Source of the DNA: Gammaproteobacteria bacterium
Lineage (GTDB): Bacteria > Pseudomonadota > Gammaproteobacteria > Thiohalospirales > Thiohalospiraceae
Length of the DNA stretch: 64,000 bases
Reading direction: 5' to 3'
Assembly (NCBI GenBank): GCA_015491735.1
Contig: WFVH01000078.1
Location: 1-64,000, forward strand
Made by a program: the position numbers and the translations under genes
Notes under the pieces: generated by a model
The model's database searches: none
Told to the model about the DNA's origin: nothing
The model's input: the letters and a program-made list of their open reading frames with translations, nothing else
Part shown: piece by piece, positions 33,635-54,720 of the stretch
How the letters are laid out: the number at the start of each line of letters is the position of its first letter
How positions within the stretch are numbered: position 1 is the stretch's first letter

Positions 33635-33703
33635 GTACTCTTTCAAGGTAATAAATCAGGATTCAGTGCCCCTGAATCCTGATTTATTACCTTGAAAGAG
33701 TAC
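33635..33703. repeat. Perfect 32-bp inverted repeat with 5-nt loop between ccoH and ccoI
   Basis: Arms 33635-33666 and 33672-33703 are fully complementary; the loop is TGCCC. The outermost bases are GTACTC and GAGTAC. There is no T run after it, so it is not a normal intrinsic terminator, and I found no second copy and no flanking direct repeat. On RNA it would form a very stable stem able to protect ccoGH mRNA ends or hinder read-through into ccoI. Confidence 0.95.
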
Positions 33704-36622: not shown

Positions 36623-37351
36623 ATGATCGTACTGTTTACCGACTTTGGTATTGCAGGTCCCTATGTTGGTCAGATGAAAGCGGTGCTTGTCCGCCATGCT
36701 CCATCTGCCCCGGTTATTGACCTGTTTTCCGATGCTCCGCGGTGCAATCCGAGAGCGGCAGCATTCCTGCTGGCGGCTTATGTCAGCGAGTTTCCGCTCG
36801 ATACAGTCTTTCTCGCTGTCGTCGATCCGGGGGTTGGTGACAAGCGGCGGAGGGCAGCTGTCATTCGGGCGGATGGGCGATGGTACGTCGGGCCGGACAA
36901 CGGGCTGTTCAATGTGGTGGCTATGCGGGCGCGCAGCTTGAAGTGGTGGGACATTGGCTGGCGGCCGGCACGAATGTCCAACAGCTTCCACGGCAGGGAT
37001 CTGTTTGCTCCCTTGGCCGCAAGAATCGCCAATGGTGAAGAGCCACCCGGTACGCAGGTTCCGGAAAATGAGCGCGTTATCGCCGGTTGGCCAGCGGATC
37101 TTCCGGAAGTGGTCTATATCGATCATTTTGGAAATGCCCTGTCAGGGTTGCGCGCCTCCAACCTGCCATCACATAGCAAGCTGCTTGTCAGGGACCGGAC
37201 CGTTCGCTATGCTCGAACCTTTTCGTCTGCTCCTGAAGGTGAACCGTTTTGGTATGAAAATTCCAACGGTTTGGTGGAGATAGCAGTCAACAAGGGACAT
37301 GCGGGAGAATTGCTTGGCCTGGAGATTGGAAATCCGGTTGATATTTTGTAA
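36623..37351 (+). CDS. SAM hydrolase / SAM hydroxide adenosyltransferase (DUF62 family)
   Basis: 242 aa. Members of this family (Pfam SAM_HAT) split S-adenosylmethionine into adenosine and methionine, and are relatives of SAM fluorinases and chlorinases. Motifs seen: LFTDFG (5-10), DPGVGD, YVGPDNGLF and the C-terminal YIDHFGNALS. The halide-site residues were not assessed, but most homologues are hydrolases. Its stop codon TAA (37349-37351) is formed by the GTAAC end of the inserted repeat that follows; without the repeat the frame would end one codon later at a TGA overlapping tcdA. Confidence 0.88.
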   Translation: MIVLFTDFGIAGPYVGQMKAVLVRHAPSAPVIDLFSDAPRCNPRAAAFLLAAYVSEFPLDTVFLAVVDPGVGDKRRRAAVIRADGRWYVGPDNGLFNVVAMRARSLKWWDIGWRPARMSNSFHGRDLFAPLAARIANGEEPPGTQVPENERVIAGWPADLPEVVYIDHFGNALSGLRASNLPSHSKLLVRDRTVRYARTFSSAPEGEPFWYENSNGLVEIAVNKGHAGELLGLEIGNPVDIL

Positions 37352-37637
37352 CAGCTCAGCCAGTCTCCGGAATTCGCGCACCCTTTCCGCGTTGAAAGAA
37401 AAATGGTAATTCTTCAGCTTGGTATGAAGTAAGCCAGTAACTGTTCAGCTCACCCCTGAAATCCGCCAGTTCAAGGCGAAAAATGGGAGTTTACGGGTGT
37501 AAATGACCCTTTTTCAACGCAGAAATGGCGGATTTCAGGGGTGAGCTGAATAGTTACGAAAAATGATCATTTACTGACTGTAAATACCTGTTCTCCGCCT
37601 TGAACTGACAAATCTCAGTGGCCATCTGAGCGGTTAC
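37348..37637. mobile_element. Older decayed palindromic element, split by a younger 152-bp copy
   Basis: The ends GTAACAGCTCAG (37348-37359) and CTGAGCGGTTAC (37626-37637) are imperfect inverted repeats. It is flanked by GATATTTT (37340-37347) and GATATGTT (37638-37645), an 8-bp duplication with one change. Removing the inner 152-bp element and one of its 8-bp repeats leaves 130 bp. The left end provides the stop codon of the SAM hydrolase gene and the right repeat touches the tcdA start. Confidence 0.8.
37406..37557. mobile_element. Intact 152-bp MITE-like palindromic element, copy A
   Basis: Flanked by perfect 8-bp repeats GAAAAATG (37398-37405 and 37558-37565). The ends are GTAATTCTTCAGC and GCTGAATAGTTAC. 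The core 37437-37557 is a long palindrome whose outer 32-nt arms (37437-37468 and 37526-37557) differ at one position. It has no coding capacity. GTAA ends and 8-bp target duplications suggest mobilisation by an IS66-family transposase (inference). Confidence 0.88.
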
Positions 37638-37645
37638 GATATGTT

Positions 37646-38446
37646 ATGAGTGATGGACTTCCGAGCGCCTATCATCAGCGGTTTGGTGGTATAAGCCGTT
37701 TATACGGAGAAGGCGCGCTAAACAAGCTGAAAGAACGGCATGTCTGTGTCATCGGTTTGGGCGGGGTAGGCTCCTGGGCCGTAGAGGCATTGGCTCGCAG
37801 CGGTGTTGGTTCACTGACCCTGATCGACTTCGACGAGATATGCCTGACCAATACTAACCGCCAACTGCCCGCCTTGAGCGGTACCGTTGGGAAGAAAAAA
37901 GGGCAGGTAATGGCGCAGCGCGTAGCGGATGTCAATCCGGATTGTCATTGTCAGATTATTGAGGATTTCGTAACTACGCACACGATAGCAGACTATCTCT
38001 CTGCCGATCGGGGATATGATTATGTTATTGATGCCATTGATAGTATCAAATTCAAATCCGAGATAGTCTATTTCTGTAAACGCAACAAGATTCCCGTTAT
38101 TACCACAGGCGGCGCTGGCGGGGTTACCGATCCGCTAACGATCAAGGTGGCGGATTTAAGCCGTACCTATAACGATGCACTGGCGGCAAAGGTTCGCTCC
38201 CGGTTGCGTACTGAATTTGGATATACACGGAATCGTAAACGCCGCTTCGGCGTTGAATGCGTGTTCTCTTCTCAACAGCGGTTGTATCCAAAAGCTGATG
38301 GTAGTGTCAGCTATCAAAAGCCGGGAATACACGGGGTTTCTCTGGACTGCCGTTTCAGCTACGGTTCAGCGTCATTCGTTACCGCTGTTTTTGGATTTGT
38401 TGCTGCATCGCGGGTGGTCAACAACTTCCATGCCCGGCGTAAATAA
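37646..38446 (+). CDS. tcdA: tRNA threonylcarbamoyladenosine dehydratase
   Basis: E1-like ATP-dependent enzyme that cyclises t6A37 of tRNA to ct6A; 266 aa. Nucleotide-binding GLGGVGSWAVEALARSG (about 37-53) and DFDEICLTNTNRQ match TcdA (CsdL). A C-terminal hydrophobic stretch (FVTAVFGFVAASRVV) may contact the membrane. No Shine-Dalgarno precedes ATG 37646: the start is immediately after the 8-bp duplication of the older repeat, which suggests that translation was once coupled to the upstream gene by an ATGA overlap. Confidence 0.94.
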   Translation: MSDGLPSAYHQRFGGISRLYGEGALNKLKERHVCVIGLGGVGSWAVEALARSGVGSLTLIDFDEICLTNTNRQLPALSGTVGKKKGQVMAQRVADVNPDCHCQIIEDFVTTHTIADYLSADRGYDYVIDAIDSIKFKSEIVYFCKRNKIPVITTGGAGGVTDPLTIKVADLSRTYNDALAAKVRSRLRTEFGYTRNRKRRFGVECVFSSQQRLYPKADGSVSYQKPGIHGVSLDCRFSYGSASFVTAVFGFVAASRVVNNFHARRK

Positions 38447-38769
38447 ATTCTTGTTTATCAATAAATTGTTAATGCCCTGTCACGTTTTTGCACTTCCTCC
38501 CTTCAGAATGCCATTCCCCCCGGGCGCACTGCTCGCAGCATCTGGGCCGGGGCTGATTACTGCAAGCTTTGTGCATTTGGGGAGTGTTCCGCGAAAGAGA
38601 GAAGTGAAATTTCATATACCCGGAAGAAGGAGAAATGCATCGGGTGGGGGAGTGCAAGCGTAGCGATTCGCCAGCTCAAGTTACGTTTGTGACTTGAATC
38701 CAAGTTAACCATAACAGTATCTCCCGCCCGCAAGAAAAAAGGGTGCCGGGATGTGAGGTATTGCAGAGG
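38447..38769. other. 323-bp gene-free stretch after tcdA
   Basis: AT-rich start after the tcdA stop, with no strong terminator, and no frame with a believable start. The overlapping minus-strand frame starts inside the adjacent repeat and has no ribosome binding site. I see nothing else. Copy B of the palindromic element follows, then about 195 bp with the probable pnt promoter, which I could not place precisely. Confidence 0.45.
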
Positions 38770-38921
38770 GTAACTATTCAGCTCCCCCCTGAAATCCGCC
38801 ATTTCTGCGTTGAAAAATGGTCATTTACACGCGTAAACTCCCATTTTTCGCCTTGAACTGACGGATTTCAGGGGCAATCTGAACAGTTGCCGGCTTGTTT
38901 CATACTATGCTGAATAGTTAC
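38770..38921. mobile_element. Intact 152-bp MITE-like palindromic element, copy B
   Basis: Ends GTAACTATTCAGC and GCTGAATAGTTAC form a perfect 13-bp terminal inverted repeat. Perfect 8-bp target duplication TGCAGAGG (38762-38769 and 38922-38929). Opposite in orientation to copies A and C: its 31-bp extension is on the right. This copy lies in a simple intergenic site, so it shows the full element boundaries most cleanly. Confidence 0.92.
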
Positions 38922-39117
38922 TGCAGAGGTAGATGATTTGACCCAATATTTGGAGCCGCCAAAGGTCTTGCAGCCATCGATGGGTGGTTTAAAGCGGTGC
39001 TTGATTGCTGTAACATAGCTGGTTTTACCGGAAGCCGGTTTTGTTTTAATCCGACTAGACTGCATTGAACTGCGTCAGATATTGTCGGCTCACCGCATCA
39101 GAATTGGAGAAACAGAG

Positions 39118-40251
39118 ATGCCGCTATGCTTGGCAGTGCCGAAAGAGATTGCCCCAGGGGAGCGCCGGGTTGCGATGGAACCGGGTGTTGCCGCCCGCCT
39201 CGCCAAAATGGGCGTTGAAGTAACCCTGCAGAGAGGAGCAGGTCTGTCCGCTCATTTTACCGATGAAGATTTTTCAGATGTGAAAATAGTCGCGACAGCC
39301 GCCACCTTGTACAAAAATGCAGATCTGATATTCAAGGTGCAGCCCCCCACGCTGAAAGAGGTGGACGCCATCAAGGAGGGGGCTGTAATTGTCGGTTTCA
39401 TGTCTCCCGGAAAAAACCCGGACGTTGTTGCAAGGATGTGTGAAAAGAACATTACCAGTTTTGCGATGGAGCTGGTGCCTCGTATCAGCCGCGCACAATC
39501 CATGGATGCGCTTTCCTCCCAGGCGGCCATTGCAGGATATAAGGGAGCGCTTATGGGGGCCGACCTTGCCAGTGTGTTCTTCCCCATGTTGACTACTGCG
39601 GCAGGCACTATCCGTCCAGCCAAGGTGCTGGTTATCGGTGCGGGTGTTGCCGGATTGCAGGCAATTGCCACAGCCAAGCGGCTTGGAGCGGTGGTGGAAG
39701 CCTATGACGTGCGTTCGGCTACCAAAGAGCAGTGTGAGTCCCTGGGCGCCAAATTTATCGACACCGGTGTCAAGGCGGAAGGGGAGGGAGGGTACGCCCG
39801 TGAACTTACTGCGGAGGAGAAACAACAGCAGCAGGATGTGTTGGCGAAGCACATCGCTATCTCGGATGTGGTCATTACCACAGCGGCGATTCCCGGTAAA
39901 CCCTCACCGCGTATTATCAGCAAAGAGATGGTAAGCCGGATGAAAACAGGGGCTGTGGTCGTGGATTTGGCGGCAGAAGGTGGTGGTAATTGCGAACTGA
40001 CCGAGCCTGGCAAGACGATTGAATTCGAGAAACGCATCATTGTCCACGGGCCACTGAATGTGCCCAGTCAGACGCCCGTGCATGCCAGCGAAATGTATGC
40101 AAAAAACCTGTTCAACCTGATCTCCCCCTTTATCAAGGAGGGTGAGCTGGTGCTCGACTGGGATGATGAAGTGATTCAGAAAAGTGCGCTGACTCATGGG
40201 GGCGAGATAAAGAGTGATCTCTGCCGTCGACCACTGGAGGAAAAAAGATGA
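39118..40251 (+). CDS. pntAA: NAD(P) transhydrogenase subunit alpha part 1
   Basis: NAD(H)-binding domain I of proton-translocating transhydrogenase; 377 aa. NAD-binding fold VLVIGAGVAGLQAIATAKRLG (residues in two runs) followed by VEAYDVRSATKEQ, and the mobile-loop region GGYARELTAEE. ATG 39118 has GGAGAAA nine nt upstream; an earlier in-frame ATG lacks homology. The alpha subunit is split into two genes here, as in Rhodospirillum, rather than fused as in E. coli. Confidence 0.94.
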   Translation: MPLCLAVPKEIAPGERRVAMEPGVAARLAKMGVEVTLQRGAGLSAHFTDEDFSDVKIVATAATLYKNADLIFKVQPPTLKEVDAIKEGAVIVGFMSPGKNPDVVARMCEKNITSFAMELVPRISRAQSMDALSSQAAIAGYKGALMGADLASVFFPMLTTAAGTIRPAKVLVIGAGVAGLQAIATAKRLGAVVEAYDVRSATKEQCESLGAKFIDTGVKAEGEGGYARELTAEEKQQQQDVLAKHIAISDVVITTAAIPGKPSPRIISKEMVSRMKTGAVVVDLAAEGGGNCELTEPGKTIEFEKRIIVHGPLNVPSQTPVHASEMYAKNLFNLISPFIKEGELVLDWDDEVIQKSALTHGGEIKSDLCRRPLEEKR

Positions 40252-40544
40252 TTGAAGGATTTACCGCTCTCTATATCTTTATGCTGGCGGCCTTCACCGG
40301 TTATGAGGTGATTAGCCGGGTTCCGGTGATCTTGCACACACCGTTGATGTCGGGCTCCAACTTTATCCACGGTATCGTGTTGGTGGGTGCGATGGTCACC
40401 TTGGGCCATGCGGAGACCGGTCTGCAGATGTTGATCGGCTTTGTTGGCGTCATTCTCGCTGCCGGCAATGCTGTAGGTGGCTATGTGGCGACCGAGCGGA
40501 TGCTGGAGATGTTCGATCGCAGCAAGAGCAAGGGAGGCGCCTAA
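40248..40544 (+). CDS. pntAB: NAD(P) transhydrogenase subunit alpha part 2
   Basis: 98-aa membrane part of the split alpha subunit, with three hydrophobic helices and the conserved PLMSGSNFIHGI between the first two. Contributes to the proton channel. ATGA overlap with pntAA; pntB starts at the base after its stop. Confidence 0.93.
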   Translation: MIEGFTALYIFMLAAFTGYEVISRVPVILHTPLMSGSNFIHGIVLVGAMVTLGHAETGLQMLIGFVGVILAAGNAVGGYVATERMLEMFDRSKSKGGA

Positions 40545-41939
40545 GTGAGCAGCTTTATCGAGATTGTCTATTTTGCTGCGGCGGTTATCTTCATCGTCGG
40601 GCTGAAAAAAATGAGTTCGCCGGTAACGGCGCGCGAAGGTATCGTCTGGGCCGGTTACGCAATGGTTGCTGCAACCGCTGTTACCTTCCTGTCTCCGGCG
40701 GTCTACGGGCACGGATTCAATCTGCTGTTGATCGTGATTGCTATCGGTATCGGCTCCTATGTCGCGTACAGAAGCGCCAAGCGTGTCGAGATGACCGATA
40801 TGCCGCAAATGATCGCCATCTATAACGGCATGGGCGGTGGCGCCGCGGCGGCTATTGCGGCTGTGGAGCTGGTTCGTTTTGCTGATGGCCATGATATCGG
40901 TGGTGGCACCGTGCAGGTGCTGGCGGTGCTGGGCGCGTTGATTGGTGCGGTCTCTTTTTCCGGTTCGGCGGTGGCTTATGCCAAGCTGCAGGGGTTGATG
41001 AACAAGACACTGCGGTTGCCTTCGCACCAGGCGCTCAATATCGCGCTGTTTGTGGTAACGGTGCTGTTTGGTTCCATTCTGGCGTTGAGTGGTGAGGTCA
41101 GTGGCTTTACCGTCTTTCTGTTTTTCCTCTGCGCCCTGGTGTTGGGGATTATGGTTACCCTGCCCATTGGCGGGGCGGATATGCCGGTGGTTATCTCTCT
41201 GTTCAACGCGCTTACCGGCCTGGCGGTGGCATTCGAAGGCTATTTGCTGGGGAATGCGGCAATGATTATCGCCGGTACCGTAGTGGGTTCGTCGGGCACC
41301 TTGCTGACACAGCTGATGGCGAAGGCAATGAACCGGCCTATCTCCAATATCCTGTTCAGCAGCTTTGGCAGTGCCGGTGGTACCGGGGAAGAAGAGGATA
41401 TCGCCGGTACGATGAAAGAGATTGAGGCCAGCGATGCTGCAGTGACCATGGCCTATGCGGAAAAAGTCATCATCATTCCCGGTTACGGAATGGCGGTCGC
41501 CCAGGCCCAGCATAAACTGGCTGAACTGGTTCAGCTGCTGGAAGACAGGGGAGTCACGGTGAAATTCGCCATCCATCCGGTTGCGGGGCGGATGCCGGGG
41601 CATATGAACGTGCTGCTGGCCGAGGCGGGGATCGACTATGACAAGATCTATGATCTCGACGAGATCAATCCCGAATTTCCTACCGCTGACGTGGCGCTGG
41701 TCATTGGCGCCAATGATGTGGTCAACCCGGTGGCGCGCACCAATCCGGACAGTCCCATCTACGGGATGCCCATACTGGATGCGGATAAGGCGAAGAACTG
41801 CATAGTCATCAAACGGGGGAAAGGGTCCGGCTTTTCGGGAATAGAGAATCACCTGTTTTATGCCGACAATACGCGCATGCTGTATGGAGATGCGCAAAAG
41901 GCCATTGGCGAACTGATTGCCGGAGTCAAGCAGCTGTGA
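40545..41939 (+). CDS. pntB: NAD(P) transhydrogenase subunit beta
   Basis: 464 aa. Eight or nine membrane helices, then the NADP(H)-binding domain III (about 285-464) with IIPGYGMAVAQAQH, AGRMPGHMNVLLAEA and GANDVVNPVA. With PntAA/AB it couples proton entry to NADPH formation. GTG start immediately after the pntAB stop. Confidence 0.95.
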   Translation: MSSFIEIVYFAAAVIFIVGLKKMSSPVTAREGIVWAGYAMVAATAVTFLSPAVYGHGFNLLLIVIAIGIGSYVAYRSAKRVEMTDMPQMIAIYNGMGGGAAAAIAAVELVRFADGHDIGGGTVQVLAVLGALIGAVSFSGSAVAYAKLQGLMNKTLRLPSHQALNIALFVVTVLFGSILALSGEVSGFTVFLFFLCALVLGIMVTLPIGGADMPVVISLFNALTGLAVAFEGYLLGNAAMIIAGTVVGSSGTLLTQLMAKAMNRPISNILFSSFGSAGGTGEEEDIAGTMKEIEASDAAVTMAYAEKVIIIPGYGMAVAQAQHKLAELVQLLEDRGVTVKFAIHPVAGRMPGHMNVLLAEAGIDYDKIYDLDEINPEFPTADVALVIGANDVVNPVARTNPDSPIYGMPILDADKAKNCIVIKRGKGSGFSGIENHLFYADNTRMLYGDAQKAIGELIAGVKQL

Positions 41940-42040
41940 ACGGCTGTGGGTGGCCGCGGGATGGCAGCGTTTTTCAGGAGCAGATGTAAACTGCTTGACC
42001 TCAAAGAGGTTTGACAGTAGCGTATCTGGAATATGTCTGG

Positions 42041-42066
42041 CCGCCCGTTCGAGACGGGCGGTTTTT
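42041..42066 (+). terminator. Rho-independent terminator between pntB and ilvB
   Basis: An 8-bp perfect stem CCGCCCGT/ACGGGCGG with a TCGAG loop, then TTTTT. It ends 19 nt before the ilvB start. It most simply terminates pntAA-AB-B. TTGACA at 42011 upstream raises the possibility that it also attenuates an ilvB transcript, but I found no branched-chain-rich leader ORF there. Confidence 0.85.
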
Positions 42067-42084
42067 ATTCGGGAGATGGGTTAA

Positions 42085-43803
42085 GTGGAATTGAGCGGTG
42101 CCGAAATCCTTGTTCAGTTTTTGAAGGACGAGGGCGTCGAGTGTGTGTTTGGCTACCCGGGTGGTAGCGTGTTGCATATCTATGATGAACTGTACAAACA
42201 GGAGGATATCAAGCATATCCTGGTTCGCCACGAGCAGGCGGCGGCGCATGCCGCGGATGGTTATGCCCGAACCTCTGGTAAAGCCGGTGTGGTGCTGGTT
42301 ACCTCCGGCCCCGGAGTGACCAACGCGGTTACCGGTATTGCGACCGCCTATATGGATTCAATTCCCATGGTGGCCATTACGGGCCAGGTGCCGACGGCGG
42401 TGATTGGCAGCGACGCCTTTCAGGAGGTGGATACCGTGGGCATCACCCGCCCTTGCTCCAAACATAACTTTCTGGTCAAGGATGTGCGGGAACTGGCTGT
42501 TACCCTGAAAAAAGCGTTCCACCTGGCAACTACCGGCCGCCCCGGTCCGGTGGTGGTGGATATTCCCAAGGATGTGACCGATCCCAACGTCAAGGTGCCC
42601 TACAGTTACCCCGAAACCGTATCGATGCGCTCCTACAACCCGAAGGTAAGGGGGAATGCGCGTCAGATTCGCCGGGCAGTGGAGCTCATCCTTTCCGCCA
42701 GACGTCCGGTTATCTATTCCGGGGGAGGGGTTATTCTCGGGCGGGCCGCCAGCTCTCTGACCGAGCTGACCCGTCTGCTCAACATTCCCATTACCAGCAC
42801 GCTGATGGGGTTGGGGGGGTATCCGGCAACGGATCGGCAGTTTTTGGGTATGCTGGGAATGCATGGCACCTACGAAGCCAATATGGCGATGCACGAGTGT
42901 GATGTATTGATTGCCGTTGGTGCGCGTTTCGATGATCGGGTCACCGGCAAGATCGAGCAGTTTTGCCCCCATGCCAAGATTGTTCACATCGATATCGATC
43001 CAGCCTCCATATCAAAGACGGTCAAAGTGGATGTGCCCATTGTTGGAGATGTAGACAGTGTTCTGACCGAGATGTTGCAGTTTCTGCGTGGCACCGAGTC
43101 TTCAATGAACCAGGCTGAACTGCAGCAGTGGTGGGAGCTGATTGATACCTGGCGCGCCACCGACTGTTTGGCCTACGACCGGGATAGCGAGCTGATCAAG
43201 CCCCAGTTCGTGGTGGAAAAGCTGTGGGAGATAACCGGAGGCGGGGCTTTTGTCAGTACCGATGTCGGGCAGCATCAGATGTGGGCTGCACAGTTTTACC
43301 GTTTTGACAACCCGAGCCGGTTTGTTACTTCCGGGGGATTGGGCACCATGGGCTTTGGTTTGCCGGCGGCCATGGGGATACAGCTTGCCAACCCCGAATC
43401 CGATGTCGTTTGCATTACCGGCGAAGGCAGCATACAGATGTGTATTCAGGAGTTGTCCACCTGTTTTCAATACATGCTGCCGTTGAAAATAGTCAATCTC
43501 AATAACCGCTATCTTGGAATGGTTCGCCAGTGGCAGGAGTTTTTCTACGGCAGCCGTTACTCTCACTCCTACATGGACGCTCTGCCGGATTTTGTAAAGT
43601 TGGCGGAGTCCTACGGGCATGTCGGGGTGCGTATCGAGAATCCGGCGGATGTCGAGGATGCCTTGAGAGATGCGTTTGCACTGAAGGAGCGGTTGGTATT
43701 TCTCGACTTCATTACTGATCAGACGGAAAATGTATATCCCATGATCGCGGCCGGAAAGGCGCACCACGAGATGGAAATGTCGCCTAAAAGTGTTTTGATA
43801 TAA
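42085..43803 (+). CDS. ilvB: Acetolactate synthase large subunit
   Basis: ThDP enzyme for the first common step of valine, leucine and isoleucine synthesis; 572 aa. The catalytic glutamate is E50 in VRHEQAAAHAADGYAR. The diphosphate motif reads GEGSIQM in place of the usual GDGS, a variant also seen in other proteobacteria. FAD-binding region and RFDDRVTGK are present. GTG 42085 has CGGGAGATGG upstream. First gene of ilvBN-ilvC. Confidence 0.95.
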   Translation: MELSGAEILVQFLKDEGVECVFGYPGGSVLHIYDELYKQEDIKHILVRHEQAAAHAADGYARTSGKAGVVLVTSGPGVTNAVTGIATAYMDSIPMVAITGQVPTAVIGSDAFQEVDTVGITRPCSKHNFLVKDVRELAVTLKKAFHLATTGRPGPVVVDIPKDVTDPNVKVPYSYPETVSMRSYNPKVRGNARQIRRAVELILSARRPVIYSGGGVILGRAASSLTELTRLLNIPITSTLMGLGGYPATDRQFLGMLGMHGTYEANMAMHECDVLIAVGARFDDRVTGKIEQFCPHAKIVHIDIDPASISKTVKVDVPIVGDVDSVLTEMLQFLRGTESSMNQAELQQWWELIDTWRATDCLAYDRDSELIKPQFVVEKLWEITGGGAFVSTDVGQHQMWAAQFYRFDNPSRFVTSGGLGTMGFGLPAAMGIQLANPESDVVCITGEGSIQMCIQELSTCFQYMLPLKIVNLNNRYLGMVRQWQEFFYGSRYSHSYMDALPDFVKLAESYGHVGVRIENPADVEDALRDAFALKERLVFLDFITDQTENVYPMIAAGKAHHEMEMSPKSVLI

Positions 43804-43805
43804 CC

Positions 43806-44300
43806 ATGCGTCATATTATCTCCCTGTTGATAGAGAACGAGGCGGGTGCGCTTTCCCGCGTTGCCGGTCTTTTTTCTGCCCGTGGCTACAACATCGAGTC
43901 CCTCAGCGTGGCGCCTACGGAAGATGCCAGCTTGTCACGCATGACTCTGGTGACGCGCGGATCGGAAGAGATTGTCGAACAGATTACCAAACAACTCAAT
44001 AAACTGGTGGATGTGGTCAAGTTGCTGGATTTGACCGAGGGCGCTCACATAGAGCGTGAAATGATGCTTATCAAGGTTCAGGCGTCTGACAGCAGTGGGC
44101 GGGATGAGGTCAAGCGGCTGGCTGACATATTTCGCGGAAACATCATCGATGTCAGCAATACCAGCTATGTCGTCGAATTGACCGGGGATAGCTGCAAGCT
44201 GGATGCTTTCATCCGTGCGCTGGGTGATACCCCGATTCTGGAAACCGTCCGCTGCGGCTCCATGGGTATCCCCCGGGGTGAAAAATCCCTGCATGTATAG
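43806..44300 (+). CDS. ilvN: Acetolactate synthase small (regulatory) subunit
   Basis: 164 aa; N-terminal ACT domain (IENEAGALSRVAGLFSARG) that binds valine, and a C-terminal ACT-like half (about 80-160). It activates IlvB and confers feedback inhibition. Starts 2 nt after ilvB. The 89-nt gap to ilvC follows. Confidence 0.95.
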   Translation: MRHIISLLIENEAGALSRVAGLFSARGYNIESLSVAPTEDASLSRMTLVTRGSEEIVEQITKQLNKLVDVVKLLDLTEGAHIEREMMLIKVQASDSSGRDEVKRLADIFRGNIIDVSNTSYVVELTGDSCKLDAFIRALGDTPILETVRCGSMGIPRGEKSLHV

Positions 44301-44374
44301 CCTTTCTGCGGAGAGCTTCTTCTGCAATTGCTGCTTGTTATCGGGTTGCTAAATCATCAACAAAGAAACCATAA

Positions 44375-45406
<1,032 letters not shown>

Positions 45407-45561
45407 GCGGCGGTTAATCGCCGAATGCGTGAAGGCTTGAACCCCCGCCGTTCGCCGGCTACAGAACGGATGGGCAAGTTTGTTAACTGCTCCATTCTGT
45501 TCAAACCCTTCATGTACTCGTTTTTCTTGTGGTGAAGGCTTGCCTCACGGGCTGATTTTGC

Positions 45562-46194
45562 ATGCGCTCCAAGCACTATCCTATTGTTGCCCGGCAGGGA
45601 TTATGGCTTATTCTTCCCCTGAGTGGGGCGGGGCTGCTTCTGCTTCTGTTTCATCAGTTTGCTTTCTCCTTGCCGGTATGGCTGGCCGTTGGGGTAATCG
45701 CGTTTCTGTTTCGTGATCCGGAACGTCGTATTCCGGCGAAGCCATTGGGAATCGTTGCGCCCGTCGATGGCCGTGTTATCGCAATGCAGGAGATGGATGA
45801 TCCTTACCTTGAAAGGAGAGCCTGTTGGCTCAAAATTGCAGGTTCTGCCGCAGGAAGTTATGTCGTGCGTTCCCCCATGGAGGGCAAACTGCAGAAACAG
45901 TGGTATGCTACGCCTTCGGACATCGGCAACTCACGAGCCGTTTTGGCCACATGGATTCAAAGTGACGAGGGAGATGATATTCTCCTGCTGGTTCGGCCGC
46001 GGTTGGCGTGGTTGAGATTGCACAGCGATGTCGTTCCTGGCGAGCGGACCGGGCAGGGGATGCGCCTCTGTTACTCCCCTTTTGGCGCAGAGATTGAAAT
46101 CTGGATGCCGTTGAATACGCATATCGATGTGCGGCCGGGGCAGAGAATCCATTCAGGTAGTGATGTTATTGGCATATTGAATCATGGCTCTTGA
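45562..46194 (+). CDS. Phosphatidylserine decarboxylase-like protein lacking the processing serine
   Basis: 210 aa, same family as the short archaeal-type Psd: two N-terminal membrane helices (14-30 and 33-50), FRDPERRIP (50-58) and IVAPVDGRV (64-72). Active members cleave themselves at Gly-Ser in a motif like FGSRLDVYLP to make the pyruvoyl cofactor. Here the aligned segment is FGAEIEIWMP (174-183), with Ala176 in place of Ser, and the DVHxxRAP histidine region reads GSYVVRSPMEG. It should not be able to form a pyruvoyl enzyme. The gene is intact and overlaps pssA by 11 nt, so it probably keeps a non-catalytic role in phospholipid synthesis. Confidence 0.75.
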   Translation: MRSKHYPIVARQGLWLILPLSGAGLLLLLFHQFAFSLPVWLAVGVIAFLFRDPERRIPAKPLGIVAPVDGRVIAMQEMDDPYLERRACWLKIAGSAAGSYVVRSPMEGKLQKQWYATPSDIGNSRAVLATWIQSDEGDDILLLVRPRLAWLRLHSDVVPGERTGQGMRLCYSPFGAEIEIWMPLNTHIDVRPGQRIHSGSDVIGILNHGS

Positions 46195-46957
46195 CAATGG
46201 TGAGCAGGCAAGCAGTGGCGGCAGCCCGCGGCGGCGCGGCATCTATCTGCTGCCTAACTTGTTCACCACTGCAGCTCTGTTTGCCGGGTTTTTCGGTATC
46301 ATTGCGGCGATGAAAGGGCAGTTCGAGGCCGCCTCCATCGCTATCTTTATCGCAATGATTCTGGATGGTCTCGATGGCAGGGTGGCTCGGCTGACCAATA
46401 CTCAAAGTGATTTTGGCGTTCAGTATGACAGCCTTTCTGACATGCTCTCCTTTGGACTCGCGCCAGCGCTGATTGTTTATCAGTGGTCTCTGAGCGGAAT
46501 GGGGAAGCTGGGGTGGCTGGCGGCTTTTCTGTTTACCGCTTGCGCCGCGCTGCGCCTGGCCCGTTTCAACTCCCAGGTGGAAGTGGTGGATAAACGTTTT
46601 TTCCAGGGATTGCCAAGCCCGGCGGCGGCCGGACTGATTGCCGGGTTGGTATGGGTAGGCTTCGACAACGGATTTACCGGTGAGGCGTTGCGCATTCCGG
46701 CTTTTGTATTGACGGTGGCTGCCGGTATCCTGATGGTCAGCAATGTCCGTTATCGCAGCTTCAAGGATCTGGATCTCAAGCATAAGGTTCCTTTTATGGC
46801 GGGGTTGGCCATTGTGATGGTATTCGTCTTTGTTGCTGTCGATCCACCGCAGGTTCTGTTTCTCCTGCTATTGCTCTATGCGCTGTCCGGCCCCATTTTG
46901 ACCCTGCTCTACCGGCAGCGGTTGAAGGCTTCGTCGAGTGACACGAAAGAGGGTTGA
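46184..46957 (+). CDS. pssA: CDP-diacylglycerol-serine O-phosphatidyltransferase
   Basis: 257-aa membrane enzyme that makes phosphatidylserine. The CDP-alcohol phosphatidyltransferase motif is visible from DGLDGRVARL to the two aspartates in YDSLSDMLSFG (residues about 64-88). About seven membrane helices. The type II (Bacillus-like membrane) enzyme, unlike E. coli PssA. Overlaps the Psd-like gene; dapA follows with no gap. Confidence 0.93.
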   Translation: MALDNGEQASSGGSPRRRGIYLLPNLFTTAALFAGFFGIIAAMKGQFEAASIAIFIAMILDGLDGRVARLTNTQSDFGVQYDSLSDMLSFGLAPALIVYQWSLSGMGKLGWLAAFLFTACAALRLARFNSQVEVVDKRFFQGLPSPAAAGLIAGLVWVGFDNGFTGEALRIPAFVLTVAAGILMVSNVRYRSFKDLDLKHKVPFMAGLAIVMVFVFVAVDPPQVLFLLLLLYALSGPILTLLYRQRLKASSSDTKEG

Positions 46958-47839
46958 ATGATGTTTCACGGGAGTATGGTTGCGCTGGTCACACCGATGC
47001 ATACCGATGGTTCGCTGGACGAGGAGAGTCTGCAGCGGCTGGTTGATTTCCATGTCGAAAATGGCACGGACGCCATTGTTGCAGTGGGAACGACCGGTGA
47101 ATCGCCAACGCTGGACCACCGGGAACACTGCCGTGTGATCCGTCAAGTGGTGGCGTTTGCCGCTGCGCGTATCCCGGTTATTGCAGGAACCGGGGCCAAT
47201 GCCACCGCCGAAGCCATTGAATTGACCCGTTGCGGAATGGAGGCGGGTGCGGATGCCTGCCTGCTGGTAACTCCGTACTATAACAAGCCGACGCAGGAGG
47301 GGTTGTACCGGCATTTCCGGGCGGTTGCCGAGGCGGTGCCCATACCGCAGATTCTGTACAACGTGCCGGGCAGGACAGCATGTGATCTGTTGCCGGAGAC
47401 GGTAGAGCGCCTCTCCTCCATCTCCAACATTATCGGTATCAAGGAGGCCACCGGTGATCTGGAACGAGGCAGGGAGATTCTGCAGCGTTGCGGCGACAGG
47501 CTCGATCTATACAGTGGAGATGACAGCACCGCCATGGAACTCATACTGCTGGGTGGCAAGGGCGATATTTCGGTAACCGCCAACGTCGCGCCCCGGGCGA
47601 TGCATGAGATGTGCGCCGCTGCCCTGGCCGGCGATCGCAGCCGTGCGAAAGCATTGAACCGGCCGTTGGAGGATCTGCACCGGGATCTGTTCATAGAATC
47701 CAGTCCCATTCCGGTCAAATGGGCCCTTCACGAGATGGCGTTGATCCCCCCCGGCATTCGTTTGCCCCTGACGCCGTTGGCGAAAAGCTGTCATGATACG
47801 GTCAGACAGGCGCTTGACAAGGCGGGGGTGTTGGGGTGA
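46958..47839 (+). CDS. dapA: 4-hydroxy-tetrahydrodipicolinate synthase
   Basis: First step of the lysine/diaminopimelate branch; 293 aa TIM barrel. The Schiff-base lysine is in [20 protein letters not shown] and YNVPGRT hold the other active-site residues. ATG 46958 directly follows pssA (ATG 46961 is an alternative). Followed by bamC with a GTGA overlap, as in the dapA-bamC-purC order of E. coli. Confidence 0.96.
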
Positions 47840-48132
47840 GCCATTTTTTTGCAAGGGCGGTCGCGCCGGTCTTGTTCCTTGCTGTTGTCTCAGGCTGTTC
47901 CGGCAGCAAGGAAAAGGAGATCCCGGCCTATTTCAGTGCGCAGACCATCCCTGCGCTGAAGGTTCCCGCGGATCTCGACAAGCCTTATCGCGCCCAGGAA
48001 ATGCAGTTGCCAGAGGATGCTTCCCGGGTGCAGCTTCCAGCCGGCATGGATGTGGAGGAGCTGTTGAAGCCGCCGCGTATCGTTGATGATACCGCGTCCT
48101 GGGCTGGCGAACGATCTGAAAAACGGCTATGA
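47836..48132 (+). CDS. bamC: Miniature BamC-like lipoprotein
   Basis: 98-aa precursor; lipobox VSGC with the lipidated cysteine at C21. The mature part (about 77 aa) has the [19 protein letters not shown] type of sequence found in the unstructured N-terminus of BamC, which in E. coli binds BamD. Both helix-grip domains that make up the rest of the 344-aa E. coli protein are absent. The gene order dapA-bamC-purC supports orthology. GTG 47836 overlaps the dapA stop, and the end overlaps purC as ATGA, so it is not simply a truncated remnant. Confidence 0.75.
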
Positions 48133-48839
48133 AGAAGCGGACAGAGCTATATGCCGGCAAGGCAAAAACAGTATATACCACGGATGATCCGGACCGGTTC
48201 ATTCTGGAGTTTCGTGACGACACCTCCGCCTTTGATGGTGAAAAGGTCGAGCAACTGCTTGGCAAGGGAGTGATCAATAACAAATTCAATGCGTTCATCA
48301 TGACCAAACTGCAGGCGGCCGGGATCCCTACCCATTTTGAACAGCTTCTGTCGGAGCGGGAATCAGTGGTCAAGCGGCTCGATATGATACCCGTCGAGTG
48401 TGTAATAAGGAATATCAGCGCCGGGAGTCTCTGCCGCCGGCTGGGCGTTGCCGAAGGTGAAACGTTGACGCCGCCGGTGTTCGAGTTTTTCTTCAAAAAT
48501 GATGCGCTGCACGATCCGATGATCAACGACTCCCATATTATTACCTTTGGCTGGGCGAACGAGCGTGAGATCAGCCGGATGAAGGAGTTGACGCTGAAGG
48601 TCAATGGTGTTCTGAAGCAGCTGTTCGGGAAAGCGGGGCTGTTGCTGGTGGACTACAAGCTGGAGTATGGCCGTTTTGACGGAGAGATTGTACTGGGGGA
48701 TGAGTTCAGTCCGGATGGCTGCCGGCTGTGGGATGCCGGGAGCCGTGAGAAGCTTGACAAGGACCGTTTCCGGCAGGGGTTGGGTTCGGTGGTGGAGTCG
48801 TACGCGGTTGTGGCGGAACGTCTTGGAATAGCGTTGTAA
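48129..48839 (+). CDS. purC: SAICAR synthase
   Basis: Joins aspartate to CAIR in purine synthesis; 236 aa. Conserved [30 protein letters not shown] and [10 protein letters not shown] segments. Overlaps bamC. parE begins 7 nt after its stop. Confidence 0.97.
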
Positions 48840-48846
48840 CGGGTTT

Positions 48847-50739
48847 ATGTCTGGTTCATACACCTCAGAATCCATCGAGGTGCTCACTGGCCTGGAGCCG
48901 GTGCGCAAAAGGCCGGGCATGTATACCCAGACCGAACGGCCCAACCATCTGGCCCAGGAGGTGATCGATAACAGCGTCGATGAGGCCATTGCCGGTTTTG
49001 CTAGAAGCATCAAGGTAACACTCCACGCGGATGGCTCCCTGTCGGTAGAAGATGACGGACGGGGGATGCCGGTGGATCTCCATCCGGAGCAAAAACTGCC
49101 CGGTGTTGAAGTGATCCTCACCAAGCTGCATGCCGGAGGAAAGTTTTCCAACAAAAACTACACCTACTCCGGTGGCCTGCATGGCGTTGGCGTATCGGTG
49201 GTCAACGCTTTGTCCAGACGTCTGGAGGTCTGGGTGCGCCGCAATGGCAAAGAGTACCATATCGCGTTTGCCGATGGCGTCCGGGTGTCGCCGCTGGAGG
49301 CGTTGGGCGCGGTAGGCAAACGCAACACCGGCACCACCGTGCGTTTCTGGCCGGATCCGGCGTTTTTCGATTCCGCCAGATTCTCGGTACCCCGGCTCAA
49401 GCACCTGCTGCGCGCCAAAGCGGTGCTGTGCACGGGGTTGACGGTGGCGTTCACCGAGGAGAAAACGGCTGAAACCACCACGTGGCGCTATCAGGAAGGG
49501 CTCAAGGAGTACCTGCTCGGCGAACTCAACGGGTTGGAGACGCTTCCAAAGCAGCCTTTCGATGGCAGCATGCGGGGGAACAGCGAGGCGGTGGACTGGG
49601 CTGTTGTCTGGTCGCCCGAGCAGGGCGAACTGGTCACGGAAAGCTACGTCAACCTGATCCCCACCAGTCAGGGTGGCACCCATGTCAACGGCCTGCGTAC
49701 CGGTCTGACCGAGGCGATGCGCGAGTTTTGTGATTTCCGCGGTTTGCTGCCGCGGGGGGTCAAACTGAGTCCGGAGGATATCTGGGAGCGATGCAGCTAT
49801 ATCCTGTCGGTCAAAATGCAGGAGCCGCAGTTTTCCGGCCAGACCAAGGAGCGGCTCTCTTCTCGGGAGAGCGCCGCTTTTGTTTCCGGCGTAATCAAGG
49901 ACGCTTTCTCCCTGTGGTTGAATCAGCATCCGGATGTTGGAGAGTCGATTGCTGAACTGGCTATCGCCAATGCGCAAAAACGGCTGCGCGCCAGCAAAAA
50001 AATAGTCCGCAAAAGGGTGACCCAGGGGCCGGCGCTGCCAGGCAAGCTGGCGGACTGCTCCTCCACCGACCCCGCCTGCACTGAACTGTTTCTGGTGGAG
50101 GGTGACTCTGCTGGCGGCTCCGCCAAGCAGGCGCGGGATCGGGAGTTTCAGGCCATCATGCCGCTGCGGGGGAAAATATTGAACACCTGGGAGGTGGAAT
50201 CTGCGCAGGTGCTCGGTTCCCAGGAGGTGCATGATATCGCCATTGCCATTGGTGTCGATCCGGGATCCAGTGATCTGGAGGGGCTGCGTTACGGAAAGAT
50301 CTGCGTGTTGGCCGATGCCGACTCCGACGGCGCGCATATTGCCACGCTGTTGTGCGCCCTGTTCTTGCGCCATTTCCGCCCGCTGGTGGTGGCCGGCCAC
50401 GTGTTTGTGGCCATGCCGCCACTGTTCCGCATCGATGTGGGGAAAGAGATTTTCTATGCTCTGGATGAAGCAGAGAAAGCGGGGATACTGGATCGAATAG
50501 CGGCCGAAAAAAAACGTGGCAAGGTCACCGTGACCCGCTTCAAGGGGCTTGGGGAGATGAACCCCCTGCAGCTACGGGAAACAACGCTTTCCCCAGACAC
50601 CCGCCGACTGGTTCAGCTTACCATCACGGCCGACGACGATACCGATCAGGTGATGGACATGCTGCTGGCCAAAAAACGGGCAAAGGATCGTAAAGCGTGG
50701 CTGGAGAGCAAGGGGGATCTGGCCGAGATTCTGGATTGA
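48847..50739 (+). CDS. parE: DNA topoisomerase IV subunit B
   Basis: ATPase subunit of the decatenating type II topoisomerase; 630 aa. GHKL motifs QEVIDNSVDEAIAG, EDDGRGMP and the ATP lid GGLHGVGVS; TOPRIM motifs LVEGDSAGG and DADSDGAHI in the C-terminal half. Length and absence of the GyrB insert identify ParE rather than GyrB. parC is not in this window. Follows purC closely, so probably co-transcribed. Confidence 0.95.
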   Translation: MSGSYTSESIEVLTGLEPVRKRPGMYTQTERPNHLAQEVIDNSVDEAIAGFARSIKVTLHADGSLSVEDDGRGMPVDLHPEQKLPGVEVILTKLHAGGKFSNKNYTYSGGLHGVGVSVVNALSRRLEVWVRRNGKEYHIAFADGVRVSPLEALGAVGKRNTGTTVRFWPDPAFFDSARFSVPRLKHLLRAKAVLCTGLTVAFTEEKTAETTTWRYQEGLKEYLLGELNGLETLPKQPFDGSMRGNSEAVDWAVVWSPEQGELVTESYVNLIPTSQGGTHVNGLRTGLTEAMREFCDFRGLLPRGVKLSPEDIWERCSYILSVKMQEPQFSGQTKERLSSRESAAFVSGVIKDAFSLWLNQHPDVGESIAELAIANAQKRLRASKKIVRKRVTQGPALPGKLADCSSTDPACTELFLVEGDSAGGSAKQARDREFQAIMPLRGKILNTWEVESAQVLGSQEVHDIAIAIGVDPGSSDLEGLRYGKICVLADADSDGAHIATLLCALFLRHFRPLVVAGHVFVAMPPLFRIDVGKEIFYALDEAEKAGILDRIAAEKKRGKVTVTRFKGLGEMNPLQLRETTLSPDTRRLVQLTITADDDTDQVMDMLLAKKRAKDRKAWLESKGDLAEILD

Positions 50740-50745
50740 ATAACC

Positions 50746-50774
50746 AACGCCGGCCGGGACGGGCTGCCGGCGTT
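50746..50774. terminator. Hairpin between parE and the convergent DUF2905 gene
   Basis: AACGCCGGC (50746-50754) is inverted at 50766-50774. There is no T run on either side, so termination would be imperfect or Rho-assisted. Confidence 0.4.
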
Positions 50775-50818
50775 GTGGTTCGTTGTGACAGAGCGGCTAT
50801 TTCCCTCATGGTGCCTTG

Positions 50819-51019
50819 TCAGCGGCGAAACAGCCAGATCAGCAGGGTAATCAGCAGGCTGAGGATAGCTGCACTGGTCAAGGGAAAATAGAAACGAAAG
50901 TTCTCCCGCTCGATGACAATATCCCCAGGCAATCTGCCCAGTCCGGTTTTCTGCAGCCAGGGCCAGAGCAGTCCGATCAGAACCATCATAACTCCCAGAA
51001 TAACAAGCGTTTTGTTCAT
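50819..51019 (-). CDS. DUF2905 small membrane protein
   Basis: 66 aa with two hydrophobic helices (about 4-22 and 46-64) linked by the family signature GLGRLPGDIVIERENFRFYFP. Function unknown. The start overlaps the end of the addA-like gene by 4 nt (ATGA), so it is translated from that transcript. Confidence 0.88.
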   Translation of the reverse strand: MNKTLVILGVMMVLIGLLWPWLQKTGLGRLPGDIVIERENFRFYFPLTSAAILSLLITLLIWLFRR

Positions 51020-54000
51020 ACTGAACCTCGCCGGTCCGATTGGGCTTGTTGCTCAATTTCGAAAACATGCCGGCAGGCGGTGAAAAGCAGCAGGGAGCGC
51101 ACGGTTTTTTCCGGCCACAGCCGCTGGATACCGTTCGCATAGAGCGCCATCTGCTGCCGGTAGAGTGTAGCCAGTTGTGCAACGGTTTCCGTTGTGGCGC
51201 TGCGATGGGTCTTGTAATCGATCAGGGTAACCGTGTGGTCCCCGACCAGCAGCCGGTCAATGATGCCATGGATCGTTTTTCCATCCATTTCATAGACAAG
51301 CGGTATCTCGTTGTAGGTTGATGTATAAAGCCTGTCGTCGAACAGCGGTTGGAGCCGGGGTTCCTGAATGACCTTTCTGGCTTCCTGTTGGCACTCCAAC
51401 AGCAAGGTTGCACCGCCATTGATGGTCATTTCGGCAGAAATCTGTTGCAGCAGATCCTCTTCCCGGATAGCTGGCTCGCGGGTAAGCAGTTCCAGCATGC
51501 GGTGGATGATAGTTCCACGCAGGCGGCCATCGGGATCGCCTTTCCCCGGCTGATGGTCTCCCTGGCGGCTCGGAGCGATCTCCTGGCTGACGGGGGAGAG
51601 ATGCAGGGGGCTGTGGAGCCGGGGATCCGGCTGTTCATTACTGAAAGGCGGTTCCGGTTTGCGGGTTTGTCTCGATGTTGAGGGCGTACCTGACTCGCAC
51701 AGCACGCCGTTTTTTTCTCCATTCAGCCTGTCGCCGAATTTCTCTCGAATCATTCCATACCAGCCGAGGTTGCCGCCTCTGCCGGGGGTGGATGCCGACA
51801 GGTAGAGCAACTGTCTGGCCCGGGTGATTGCGACGTAGAGCAGGTTGGCGTCTTCCCGCTGCTGCGCTTTGGTTTGCTCTTCGAAAAGGGAGAGGGTCAG
51901 TGGGTCACTGTCCTGTTTTTTGCCCGCGAGCAGGAAATGGCTCGGCCGATCCTGTTCGGCAGGCCAGTTGACCAGGGCGCTCCAGCTGTTGTTCCGTGTG
52001 TTGCTGCTGGCGCTGTCGGCCAGGAATACCACGGGAGCCTCCAGTCCCTTGGCGGCATGAATGGTCATCAGGCGCAGCCGGGGGGCGCCGCCGCCGGTGG
52101 GGGCTTCGTCCGGGGCATCCTGCTTGAGTTCGCGCAGATCTTGCAGCCGGGCGATGAAGTGCATCAGGCTGGGATAGCGGCCACTGTCCACCTCCAGCGC
52201 CAGTTGCAGAAAACGTTCCAGATTGGCGCGTACCCGTGGACGCAGATGGGCCGGAAAAGCCGCCTCGTAACGCGCGGGCACATTCCCCTCACTGTAAATC
52301 CGTTGCAGCAGATCGTGAACCGGCAGGTGGCCTGCCAATAACTGCCACTCCCTCAGCCAGCGGCGGGCGCGGGCCAGTGGCCTGCCGGCCGGGCTGGAGG
52401 AGAGTGCCATTAACCGCTCCCACCAGCTCCCTGGCCCTTTGCCGGCCAGGGTGATCAGATCCTGATCCGAACAGGCGAATAGAGGAGAGCGCAATACCAC
52501 GGCCAGCGACAAGTTGTGGTAGGGCGCGACCAGGGTCTCGAGCAGCGCTTCCATGTCTTTGACCTCCTGGCTCTCCAGCAGTGTGCCACGGTCGGCGCTC
52601 TGGTAGGGAATTCCCGCATCGCGGAGGGCGGCTTCAATGTCTGGAAGGTGGGTGCGCCGGGCGATCAGAACCAGAATATCGTCCAGGTTGACCGGCCGTG
52701 CCTCCCCGCTATCATCGATAATAACGGGCTGTTCCACCAGTGAGCGGATGGTGGCGGCAATCTGCTCTCCTTCACGGTAGTAGCGCCGATCTGTTTGAAC
52801 GATACGGGGTTGCTGCAGGGGGTTGCGTAGCTCCCCGTTGGTTGGTGCTGCATCACAAGCGCCGCACTCGACCAGCGGAAGCAGCTCCACCCGCCCCCAC
52901 AAATGCGGATGGTGGGTGTCATGTGGATGAAAATGGGGCAGCTGCTGGTTCAGTTCACCACTGCCATACAGTTCGTTGACAAACTGCATGATTGCCGGCG
53001 CCGAACGCCAGGATTTGTCCATGGGATAACTGTCAGCGTCCAGATGTTCAGCCAGCCATCGGTGGGCCGTATCGAATAGCCGCGGTTCGGCGCGGCGAAA
53101 GCGGTAGATGGACTGTTTGCTGTCGCCCACAAGAAAGACGCTTCGTGGCCGCTCGGGTTCACCGGCAGCCATCTCCTCCAGCAGCGGCAGGATCAGACGC
53201 CACTGGGTCGGGTTGGTGTCCTGGAACTCGTCGATCAGCAGGTGGTCGATACGCTGATCCAGCTTGTACTGTACCCAGTGTGCGTTGCCGGCCGTGCTCA
53301 GCAGTTTGTAGCTCTTCCACTCCAGGTCGGCGAAGTCCAGCAGCCGCTGCTCCTCCTTGATGCGCTGATAGTGTGCGATTAGCCGATGCCCGGCCAGAAA
53401 CCAGGCGCTGGACAGATCCAGGGTCCGGCGGGCGGCGAGCTGCCGAAATGTGTCGAGAATGGCCCTGCTCAGTGTTTCATGCAGCTGCAGGAAGCGCTGC
53501 TGTCCCTGTTCACCCATCGCTTTGGCCTGGGCTTTTGCCGGTTTGCGTTTTCTTGGTTCGTTTTCCCGCGTCAGGAAGAGCTGCCGAAGCTCGGTGAACC
53601 GTTGTTCACTGGCTTCTGCTTCCAGGATGCGAAACAGGGATTCAGCCTGTTCCATGTTCGTTTTGGTTTTGTGTCGCGCGAGCAGCCGTCCGAACTCCAG
53701 CAACTGATCCCTGCGTCGGGGGGAAAAAAAGTTGCTGACAGGGTGCACATCCGGGTCGATCCCGAGTTGTGACTGCAGCTTGTTGCGGGCAAAGCCGGCC
53801 GGGTCGTTTTGATTATCGGTGAATGCCCACCAGTCGCTGCGGTGCTGCAGGAAATCCATCAGCGCGGTCTGCGTGTTGAACAGACTGCCGCAGTGGTTGA
53901 ACAGTGTTTCCAGCGCCCGGGCCAGGGCGGCGTCAGGAGAGCGGGTGGCTTCGCTGAACAGGGCGTCCCACGCCTCCTGCTGCAGCAGGGCGCTGCTCTC

Positions 54001-54414
54001 CAGCAACTCGAAGCCGGGCGGTATCCCGGCTTCCAGCGGAAAACGGCGCAGGATCTCCTGACAGAAGGCGTGAAAGGTGCTGGTGCGCACCGTTTGAGGG
54101 GTACGGAGCAGTTGTTCGTAGAGTATACGGGCCTGTTCCCGGTTTGCCTTTGTATCCGTTACCCCTTGTTGCGCCAGCAGCGTTGCCAGCTGCTGGCTGT
54201 CTGCGGCCGCCATCTCGTACAAACGCTGTGTTAAACGGGTCTGCATCTCTGCCGCCGCTTTGCGGGTAAAGGTGATGGCCAGAATCCCGCCCGGGCGAGC
54301 GCCATCCAGCAGCAAACGGACAAGCCGTGTCACCAGCAGCCAGGTTTTTCCAGTGCCGGCGGAAGCCATTACCGTGGCGTTACTGGCGGGGGTGGCGGGA
54401 GCTAGTTGATTCAT
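51016..54414 (-). CDS. UvrD-type helicase-nuclease, AddA/RecB-like
   Basis: Double-strand-break end-processing enzyme; 1132 aa. Superfamily 1A helicase motifs in order: Walker A ASAGTGKTWLL, HAFCQEILRRFP, LLIDEFQDTN, VGDSKQSIYRFRRAEP, LMTIHAAKGLEAPVVFLAD and LLYVAITRARQLLYLS. A C-terminal PD-(D/E)XK nuclease domain has GIIDRLL and LIDYKTHRS. Partner of the AddB-like protein encoded upstream. ATG 54414 is preferred to TTG 54432, though neither has a ribosome binding site. An element begins 26 bp upstream. Confidence 0.9.
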   Translation of the reverse strand: MNQLAPATPASNATVMASAGTGKTWLLVTRLVRLLLDGARPGGILAITFTRKAAAEMQTRLTQRLYEMAAADSQQLATLLAQQGVTDTKANREQARILYEQLLRTPQTVRTSTFHAFCQEILRRFPLEAGIPPGFELLESSALLQQEAWDALFSEATRSPDAALARALETLFNHCGSLFNTQTALMDFLQHRSDWWAFTDNQNDPAGFARNKLQSQLGIDPDVHPVSNFFSPRRRDQLLEFGRLLARHKTKTNMEQAESLFRILEAEASEQRFTELRQLFLTRENEPRKRKPAKAQAKAMGEQGQQRFLQLHETLSRAILDTFRQLAARRTLDLSSAWFLAGHRLIAHYQRIKEEQRLLDFADLEWKSYKLLSTAGNAHWVQYKLDQRIDHLLIDEFQDTNPTQWRLILPLLEEMAAGEPERPRSVFLVGDSKQSIYRFRRAEPRLFDTAHRWLAEHLDADSYPMDKSWRSAPAIMQFVNELYGSGELNQQLPHFHPHDTHHPHLWGRVELLPLVECGACDAAPTNGELRNPLQQPRIVQTDRRYYREGEQIAATIRSLVEQPVIIDDSGEARPVNLDDILVLIARRTHLPDIEAALRDAGIPYQSADRGTLLESQEVKDMEALLETLVAPYHNLSLAVVLRSPLFACSDQDLITLAGKGPGSWWERLMALSSSPAGRPLARARRWLREWQLLAGHLPVHDLLQRIYSEGNVPARYEAAFPAHLRPRVRANLERFLQLALEVDSGRYPSLMHFIARLQDLRELKQDAPDEAPTGGGAPRLRLMTIHAAKGLEAPVVFLADSASSNTRNNSWSALVNWPAEQDRPSHFLLAGKKQDSDPLTLSLFEEQTKAQQREDANLLYVAITRARQLLYLSASTPGRGGNLGWYGMIREKFGDRLNGEKNGVLCESGTPSTSRQTRKPEPPFSNEQPDPRLHSPLHLSPVSQEIAPSRQGDHQPGKGDPDGRLRGTIIHRMLELLTREPAIREEDLLQQISAEMTINGGATLLLECQQEARKVIQEPRLQPLFDDRLYTSTYNEIPLVYEMDGKTIHGIIDRLLVGDHTVTLIDYKTHRSATTETVAQLATLYRQQMALYANGIQRLWPEKTVRSLLLFTACRHVFEIEQQAQSDRRGSV

Positions 54415-54440
54415 GAAACGGAATGATAGCAAATTTCGGG

Positions 54441-54720
54441 GTAACTACTCGGCCAGCCCCGGAGATCCACCTTTTCCGGGTTGAACAACGGCCATTGGCT
54501 GACTGTAAACCCGTTGTAACGATTCAGCATAGTATGAAACAAGCCGGCAACTGTTCAGATTGCCCCTGAAATTCGTCAGTTCAAGGCGAAAAATGGGAGT
54601 TTACGAGCGTAAATGACCCTTTTTTAACGCGGAAATGGCGGATTTCAGGGGTGAGCTGAATAGTTACAACCCGTTTTTTTGCCTTGAACGGATGAGTGTC
54701 TGGGACGGCCGGGCAGGCGC
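54441..54720. mobile_element. Older palindromic element in front of the addA-like gene, split by copy C
   Basis: The left end GTAACTACTCGGCCAGCCCC (54441-54460) is imperfectly inverted at GGGACGGCCGGGCAGGCGC (54702-54720). It is flanked by a perfect 8-bp duplication ATTTCGGG (54433-54440 and 54721-54728). Without copy C and one of its duplications it would be 120 bp, close to the 121-bp core of the intact elements. The perfect duplication contrasts with its decayed right end. Confidence 0.8.
54516..54667. mobile_element. Intact 152-bp MITE-like palindromic element, copy C
   Basis: Ends GTAACGATTCAGC and GCTGAATAGTTAC; perfect 8-bp target duplication AACCCGTT (54508-54515 and 54668-54675). 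Same orientation as copy A, with the 31-bp extension on the left (ATAGTATGAAACAAGCCGGC within it). Inserted near the centre of an older relative. Confidence 0.9.

Follow-up and report, generated by a model that had tools for sequence, protein, structure and literature searches.

Repeats of exactly 152 bp in the window, the 64,000-nucleotide stretch of gammaproteobacterial contig WFVH01000078.1 analysed here, are very probably non-autonomous MITEs of the DDE type, moved at their outer ends by an IS66-family transposase of the ISBst12 group in at least two waves. A history of mobility is recorded in target duplications, empty sites and nested insertions, and ISBst12-type elements share both the type of end and the length of the duplication. 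In the proposed mechanism, a single-gene ISBst12-group transposase would recognise the outer GTAACYRYTCAG ends and cut there, and insertion of the element by this enzyme would duplicate 8 bp of the target.

Structure of the 152-bp copies in the window

Three copies of identical length, as described in the earlier note, were returned by both direct reading and recovery by script: copy 1 (37406-37557, forward strand), copy 2 (38770-38921, in the opposite orientation on the reverse strand) and copy 3 (54516-54667, forward strand). Starting from the extension, each element was shown to consist of the 13-bp motif GTAACTATTCAGC, an 18-bp spacer and a 121-bp imperfect palindrome, which starts with a second end motif, GTAACTGTTCAG, and closes with GCTGAATAGTTAC. 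This agrees with the anatomy proposed previously, i.e. a palindrome with a one-sided 31-bp extension bearing a second end motif. The extension is located on the left in copies 1 and 3 (37406-37436 and 54516-54546, followed by cores at 37437-37557 and 54547-54667) and on the right in copy 2 (38891-38921, with the core at 38770-38890). The element is bounded by terminal inverted repeats, the 13-bp GTAACTATTCAGC ends being present in inverted orientation; the outer left end of copy 1, GTAATTCTTCAGC, carries two mismatches and that of copy 3 carries one.

Each copy is flanked by a perfect 8-bp target duplication and, in line with the earlier description, the three differ from one another: GAAAAATG for copy 1 (left duplicate at 37398-37405, forward strand; right at 37558-37565), TGCAGAGG for copy 2 (38762-38769, forward strand; 38922-38929) and AACCCGTT for copy 3 (54508-54515, forward strand; 54668-54675). 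The elements are gene-less, as had been supposed, with no ORF of at least 80 aa inside any copy, while nearby listed ORFs merely run into the copy edges. Genes flanking the copies encode TcdA-like (ThiF), SAM-hydroxide adenosyltransferase, alanine dehydrogenase/PNT and AddA/AddB-like proteins.

With up to two mismatches permitted, the 13-bp motif occurs ten times in the window, compared with 0.52 occurrences expected. Two fragments outside the full copies had also been attributed to the family. At 346-358 (forward strand), a solitary end motif GTAACTATTCAGC is present, yet the resemblance extends only one to two bases further, beyond which lies an unrelated hairpin. This short hairpin (TGTAGTGGTCAAC...GTTGACCACTACA, positions 360-398), which closely follows the tmRNA gene and the lone MITE end, resembles face-to-face ends of the IS3 family. 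The second fragment, at 5639-5695 on the reverse strand, is indeed a relic of the family, but a degenerate one with an internal deletion.

Another family of repeats, GTACTCTTTCAAGGTAATAAATCAGGA..., was observed at 33635-33703 of the window, where it contains a perfect inverted repeat of 32 bp. It also occurs at loci L138, L139, L141 and L142 of genomes G007 and G002, with dozens of matches in G002, often adjoining MITEs.

Abundance and variants in the host genome

Across the genome from which the window derives (G000; 2.43 Mb in 101 contigs), the 13-bp motif was found 438 times with at most one mismatch, as opposed to once for a reversed control, and a gapped two-ended pattern identified 119 intact two-ended elements of 139-169 bp. 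Copies were analysed in detail in a sample of 393 kb of stretches of this genome, which contained 41 core ends, 39 extension ends and 10 others. Among the 35 distinct full-length copies of this sample, 32 are 152 bp long and 27 are flanked by perfect 8-bp duplications, with a single mismatch in three more, so that most of the genome copies checked have duplications like those claimed for the window copies. Rarer variants of 62, 100 and 176 bp are likewise flanked by perfect duplications, the 176-bp variant having its outer 12 bp tripled.

In the sampled stretches, the family reaches a density of approximately one copy per 10 kb, sufficient to break genome assemblies. Many G000 contigs start or finish within a copy, indicating that the family probably does break this assembly.

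Duplications, empty sites and nested insertions

The family was detected in all seven congeners, mostly with 8-bp duplications, and in two genomes of other families within the same class; no match to the MITE was found in plasmids, phages or viral contigs. Perfect 8-bp duplications flank all sampled copies of G001, G002, G003 and G006, 10 of the 21 copies of G007 (seven more having one mismatch) and most copies of G020, which belongs to another family; older-looking copies of G004 and G005 exhibit duplications with one to six mismatches. Several G020 copies (L196, L197 and L202) were observed to carry a similar insert of ~47 bp, GCCTACATGGATGTAGGTGAGGGGCGTGAGCAGGA..., within the palindrome, their 8-bp duplications having at most one mismatch.

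For an empty-site test, nine G007 sites were closed computationally and looked for in G002, a close species. Two of the nine gave gap-free alignments across the full 240 bases, at 95% and 93% identity, and thus represent exact empty sites, the absence of which in relatives would have counted against the mobility proposed in the earlier note. Base-level empty sites were not obtained at copies 1 and 2 of the window, where intergenic DNA in other species is too diverged. The interval containing copy 1, ~390 bp in G000, measures ~93-111 bp in G003, G006 and G001, i.e. ~300 bp less, so that neither copy 1 nor its older host is present there.

That host reflects a nesting overlooked by the earlier note, in that copies 1 and 3 were each shown to reside within a relative of the same palindrome that is older and has diverged. 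The relative split by copy 1 spans 37348-37637 on the forward strand (halves 37348-37405 and 37566-37637; score of 45 versus at most 12 in 100 shuffles), while that split by copy 3 spans approximately 54441-54704 on the same strand (aligned parts 54441-54515 and 54676-54704; score of 37 versus at most 12 in 100 shuffles). Including these two, 3 of 29 recent G000 insertions are nested in older relatives, with scores of 45, 37 and 34 versus at most 13 in shuffles, and the hosts become continuous once the MITE and one duplication are removed. As recent insertions lie within older relatives, the family expanded in at least two waves, an old one now diverged and a recent one.

These observations bear on whether the repeat is instead a REP/RAYT-like palindrome, mobilised in single-stranded form by a Y1 (HUH) transposase. 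A long imperfect palindrome, high copy number and mostly intergenic placement would fit such an origin, as would a Y1_Tnp (RAYT-like) gene in G000 that adjoins the cut end of an IS66 relic; however, the MITE copies have perfect 8-bp target duplications, cleavage is at terminal inverted repeats, and the same type of end is found on DDE-type IS66 elements. HUH transposases are not known to make target duplications of this kind. The duplications, together with the exact empty sites, refute this origin, to which we assign practically no probability.

A probable IS66 partner of the ISBst12 group

A Pfam search of G000 for IS66 yielded one match, a truncated transposase (DUF6444 and DDE_Tnp_IS66) representing a left-half relic, with GTAACTATTCAGC, not belonging to a MITE copy, located 270 bp upstream of the gene. 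In G002, the right half of an IS of this type was found, which terminates in GTAACTATTCAGC, and the MITE end matches these relics of the genus at 13 of 13 positions on both sides. The G000 relic (L034:6800-7770, contig C39) breaks off at the Y1_Tnp gene, which is itself preceded by a tandem CACACATGGGGTCAGGTCTTG repeat.

In a scan of named genomes, one complete relative (L090) was identified in an uncultured Ectothiorhodospiraceae MAG (G273) of the same class as the window's genome. This element of 1727 bp has the ends GTAACTATTCAGC and GTAACCATTCAGC, encodes a single transposase of 476 aa and matches at 80% identity across the relic; L090 is not flanked by a target duplication, and no MITE was found in its genome. 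Nine ISBst12-type copies from other genomes of the class (L093, L095, L096, L098, L099, L100, L101, L115 and L119, of which L098, L115 and L119 come from one genome) were shown to combine GTAAC-type ends with perfect 8-bp duplications. Placement in the ISBst12 group is based on the single gene, the type of end and comparison with the literature, where ISDge4 of this group is reported to have the ends GTGACTACTCAGCA and GTAACTGCTCAGCA and an 8-bp repeat (PMC12898284). The link to IS66 that the earlier note had drawn from GTAA termini and 8-bp duplications is therefore supported and narrowed to the single-gene ISBst12 group, and the proposed search for an IS66 element with matching ends led to elements of this group with the same type of end and the same duplication length.

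The further suggestion of a resident transposase stands in part. IS66 relics with matching ends do occur in the genus, but these are broken copies, and an intact IS66 of matching type was detected neither in G000 nor in any congener. Similarly, no IS66 match at all was obtained in G020, despite its many MITE copies. Fragmented assemblies such as these may lack multi-copy IS elements and, given that the genus displays only its halves, the transposase may be lost or unassembled. An intact partner today is usual, though not strictly required for past mobility. Sharing between the MITE and the IS is limited to the terminal 13-15 bp, with no clear source for the MITE interior in the IS; derivation of the 31-bp extension from the right end of the IS was considered and rejected, as the similarity, judged by eye, is unconvincing beyond 13-14 bp.

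A genus without an intact matching IS66 would be expected if another DDE family, with ends similar by chance, had moved the MITE. Such a coincidence is highly improbable in view of the 13/13 match on both sides to IS66 relics of the same genus and of a duplication length that agrees with ISBst12-type elements. We infer that an ISBst12-group transposase very probably moved these MITE copies.

Maintenance of the palindrome

To assess the hairpin, 27 copies from several genomes were aligned, giving a consensus hairpin of 45 pairs. Both-sided changes were observed in nine pairs and 61 cells, compared with a shuffled mean of 20, these counts being inflated by kinship, and in slid controls the paired fraction decreased to 34-47%. 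Such paired changes are, however, seen repeatedly, in different subfamilies (ATCC/GGAT to ACGC/GCGT, for instance). Compensatory changes thus maintain the palindrome, through selection or through palindrome self-correction.

The same compensatory changes would be anticipated for an element that is primarily RNA or regulatory in nature (a terminator, RNase III substrate or mRNA stabiliser), retained at its sites through selection and mobile only secondarily, and 29 of 31 G000 copies are indeed intergenic although ~85% of the sample consists of ORFs. However, purging of insertions from genes also yields an intergenic bias, and the insertions are recent and polymorphic. Furthermore, the copies show no preferred orientation with respect to co-directional genes (12 in the same and 9 in the opposite orientation), G-T mismatches exceed A-C mismatches on one strand only slightly (6 versus 2 in the consensus of G000 and 4 versus 4 in G005), and an Rfam search returned no match to the MITE, the sole match in the window being the tmRNA. 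A primarily regulatory element is accordingly considered very unlikely, and no RNA function is claimed, as the G-T excess is small and a bias in gene orientation is lacking.

A second motif inside the extension end

Within the genus of the window, the extension measures 31 or 32 bp, and in one case 35 bp. In G020, where the boundaries were set solely by an 8-bp duplication no more than 70 bp from the inner motif, it measures 21-22 bp in nine loci, 31 bp in approximately seventeen, 44 bp in one and 0 bp in one 121-bp copy, with a few loci overlapping. The locus with the 44-bp extension (L207, contig C133 of G020) displays three end motifs 22 bp apart, the duplication flanking the outermost. Between eight G020 copies, the spacer is 45% identical, compared with 95% for the core. 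The spacer thus varies freely in sequence but keeps its length, and the motif in use is the outermost one. The inner end motif would then be an accessory binding site, with cleavage at the outermost motif. In the scanned IS ends, no convincing second motif was found at these distances.

A tentative explanation, which may well prove wrong, is that a cleavage end is stacked upon a second, normally unused motif at approximately two, three or four helical turns (21-22, 31-32 and 44 bp), with spacing conserved and the spacer free to vary. Helical phasing is put forward as a hypothesis suggested by few independent lineages, among which 35-bp and 12-bp-step variants exist. If correct, an ISBst12-group transposase would contact the two motifs from the same face of the helix, invariably cutting at the outermost, and MITEs could grow new ends stepwise, evolving asymmetric ends that are absent from the parent IS. 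The stacked end would offer a simple handle on the choice of ends by IS66-family transposases, the mechanism of which is poorly characterised.

Comparison with known systems

The MITE resembles elements of the ISBst12 group, such as ISDge4 (PMC12898284), in its GTRACTRCTCAGC-type ends and 8-bp duplication, the complete relative of the relic being single-gene as in that group. It differs from them in being gene-less and 152 bp long, in having only the terminal 13-15 bp in common, and in the additional end motif located 31 bp inward of one terminus. In the literature searched, outside of which most subscription journals fall, making this weak evidence of absence, no description of an IS66-family MITE was found, and IS66 is unmentioned in a review of prokaryotic MITEs (PMC10969869).

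In genome G088 (L212-L225), an unrelated palindromic MITE of 140-142 bp was observed with the same GTAACTAYTCAGC ends, and of the 13 copies for which both flanks were read, 7 show perfect duplications of 8 bp. One bacterial class therefore contains at least two unrelated families of palindromic MITEs whose ends are of the ISBst12 type, namely the 152-bp family and that of G088.

ERIC, Correia/NEMIS and RUP (PMC10969869) are, like the present family, short, gene-less, intergenic, high-copy and hairpin-forming, but their ends differ and the 8-bp duplications set the present family apart. MITECca01 of Cardinium, with 169 copies amounting to 3.5% of the chromosome, likewise outnumbers its parent IS, although that parent is an IS982 element of which intact copies are present (PMC9769881). 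A MITE with an IS partner is a known kind of element, and the stacked end is the unusual part of a MITE that otherwise belongs to this known general kind.
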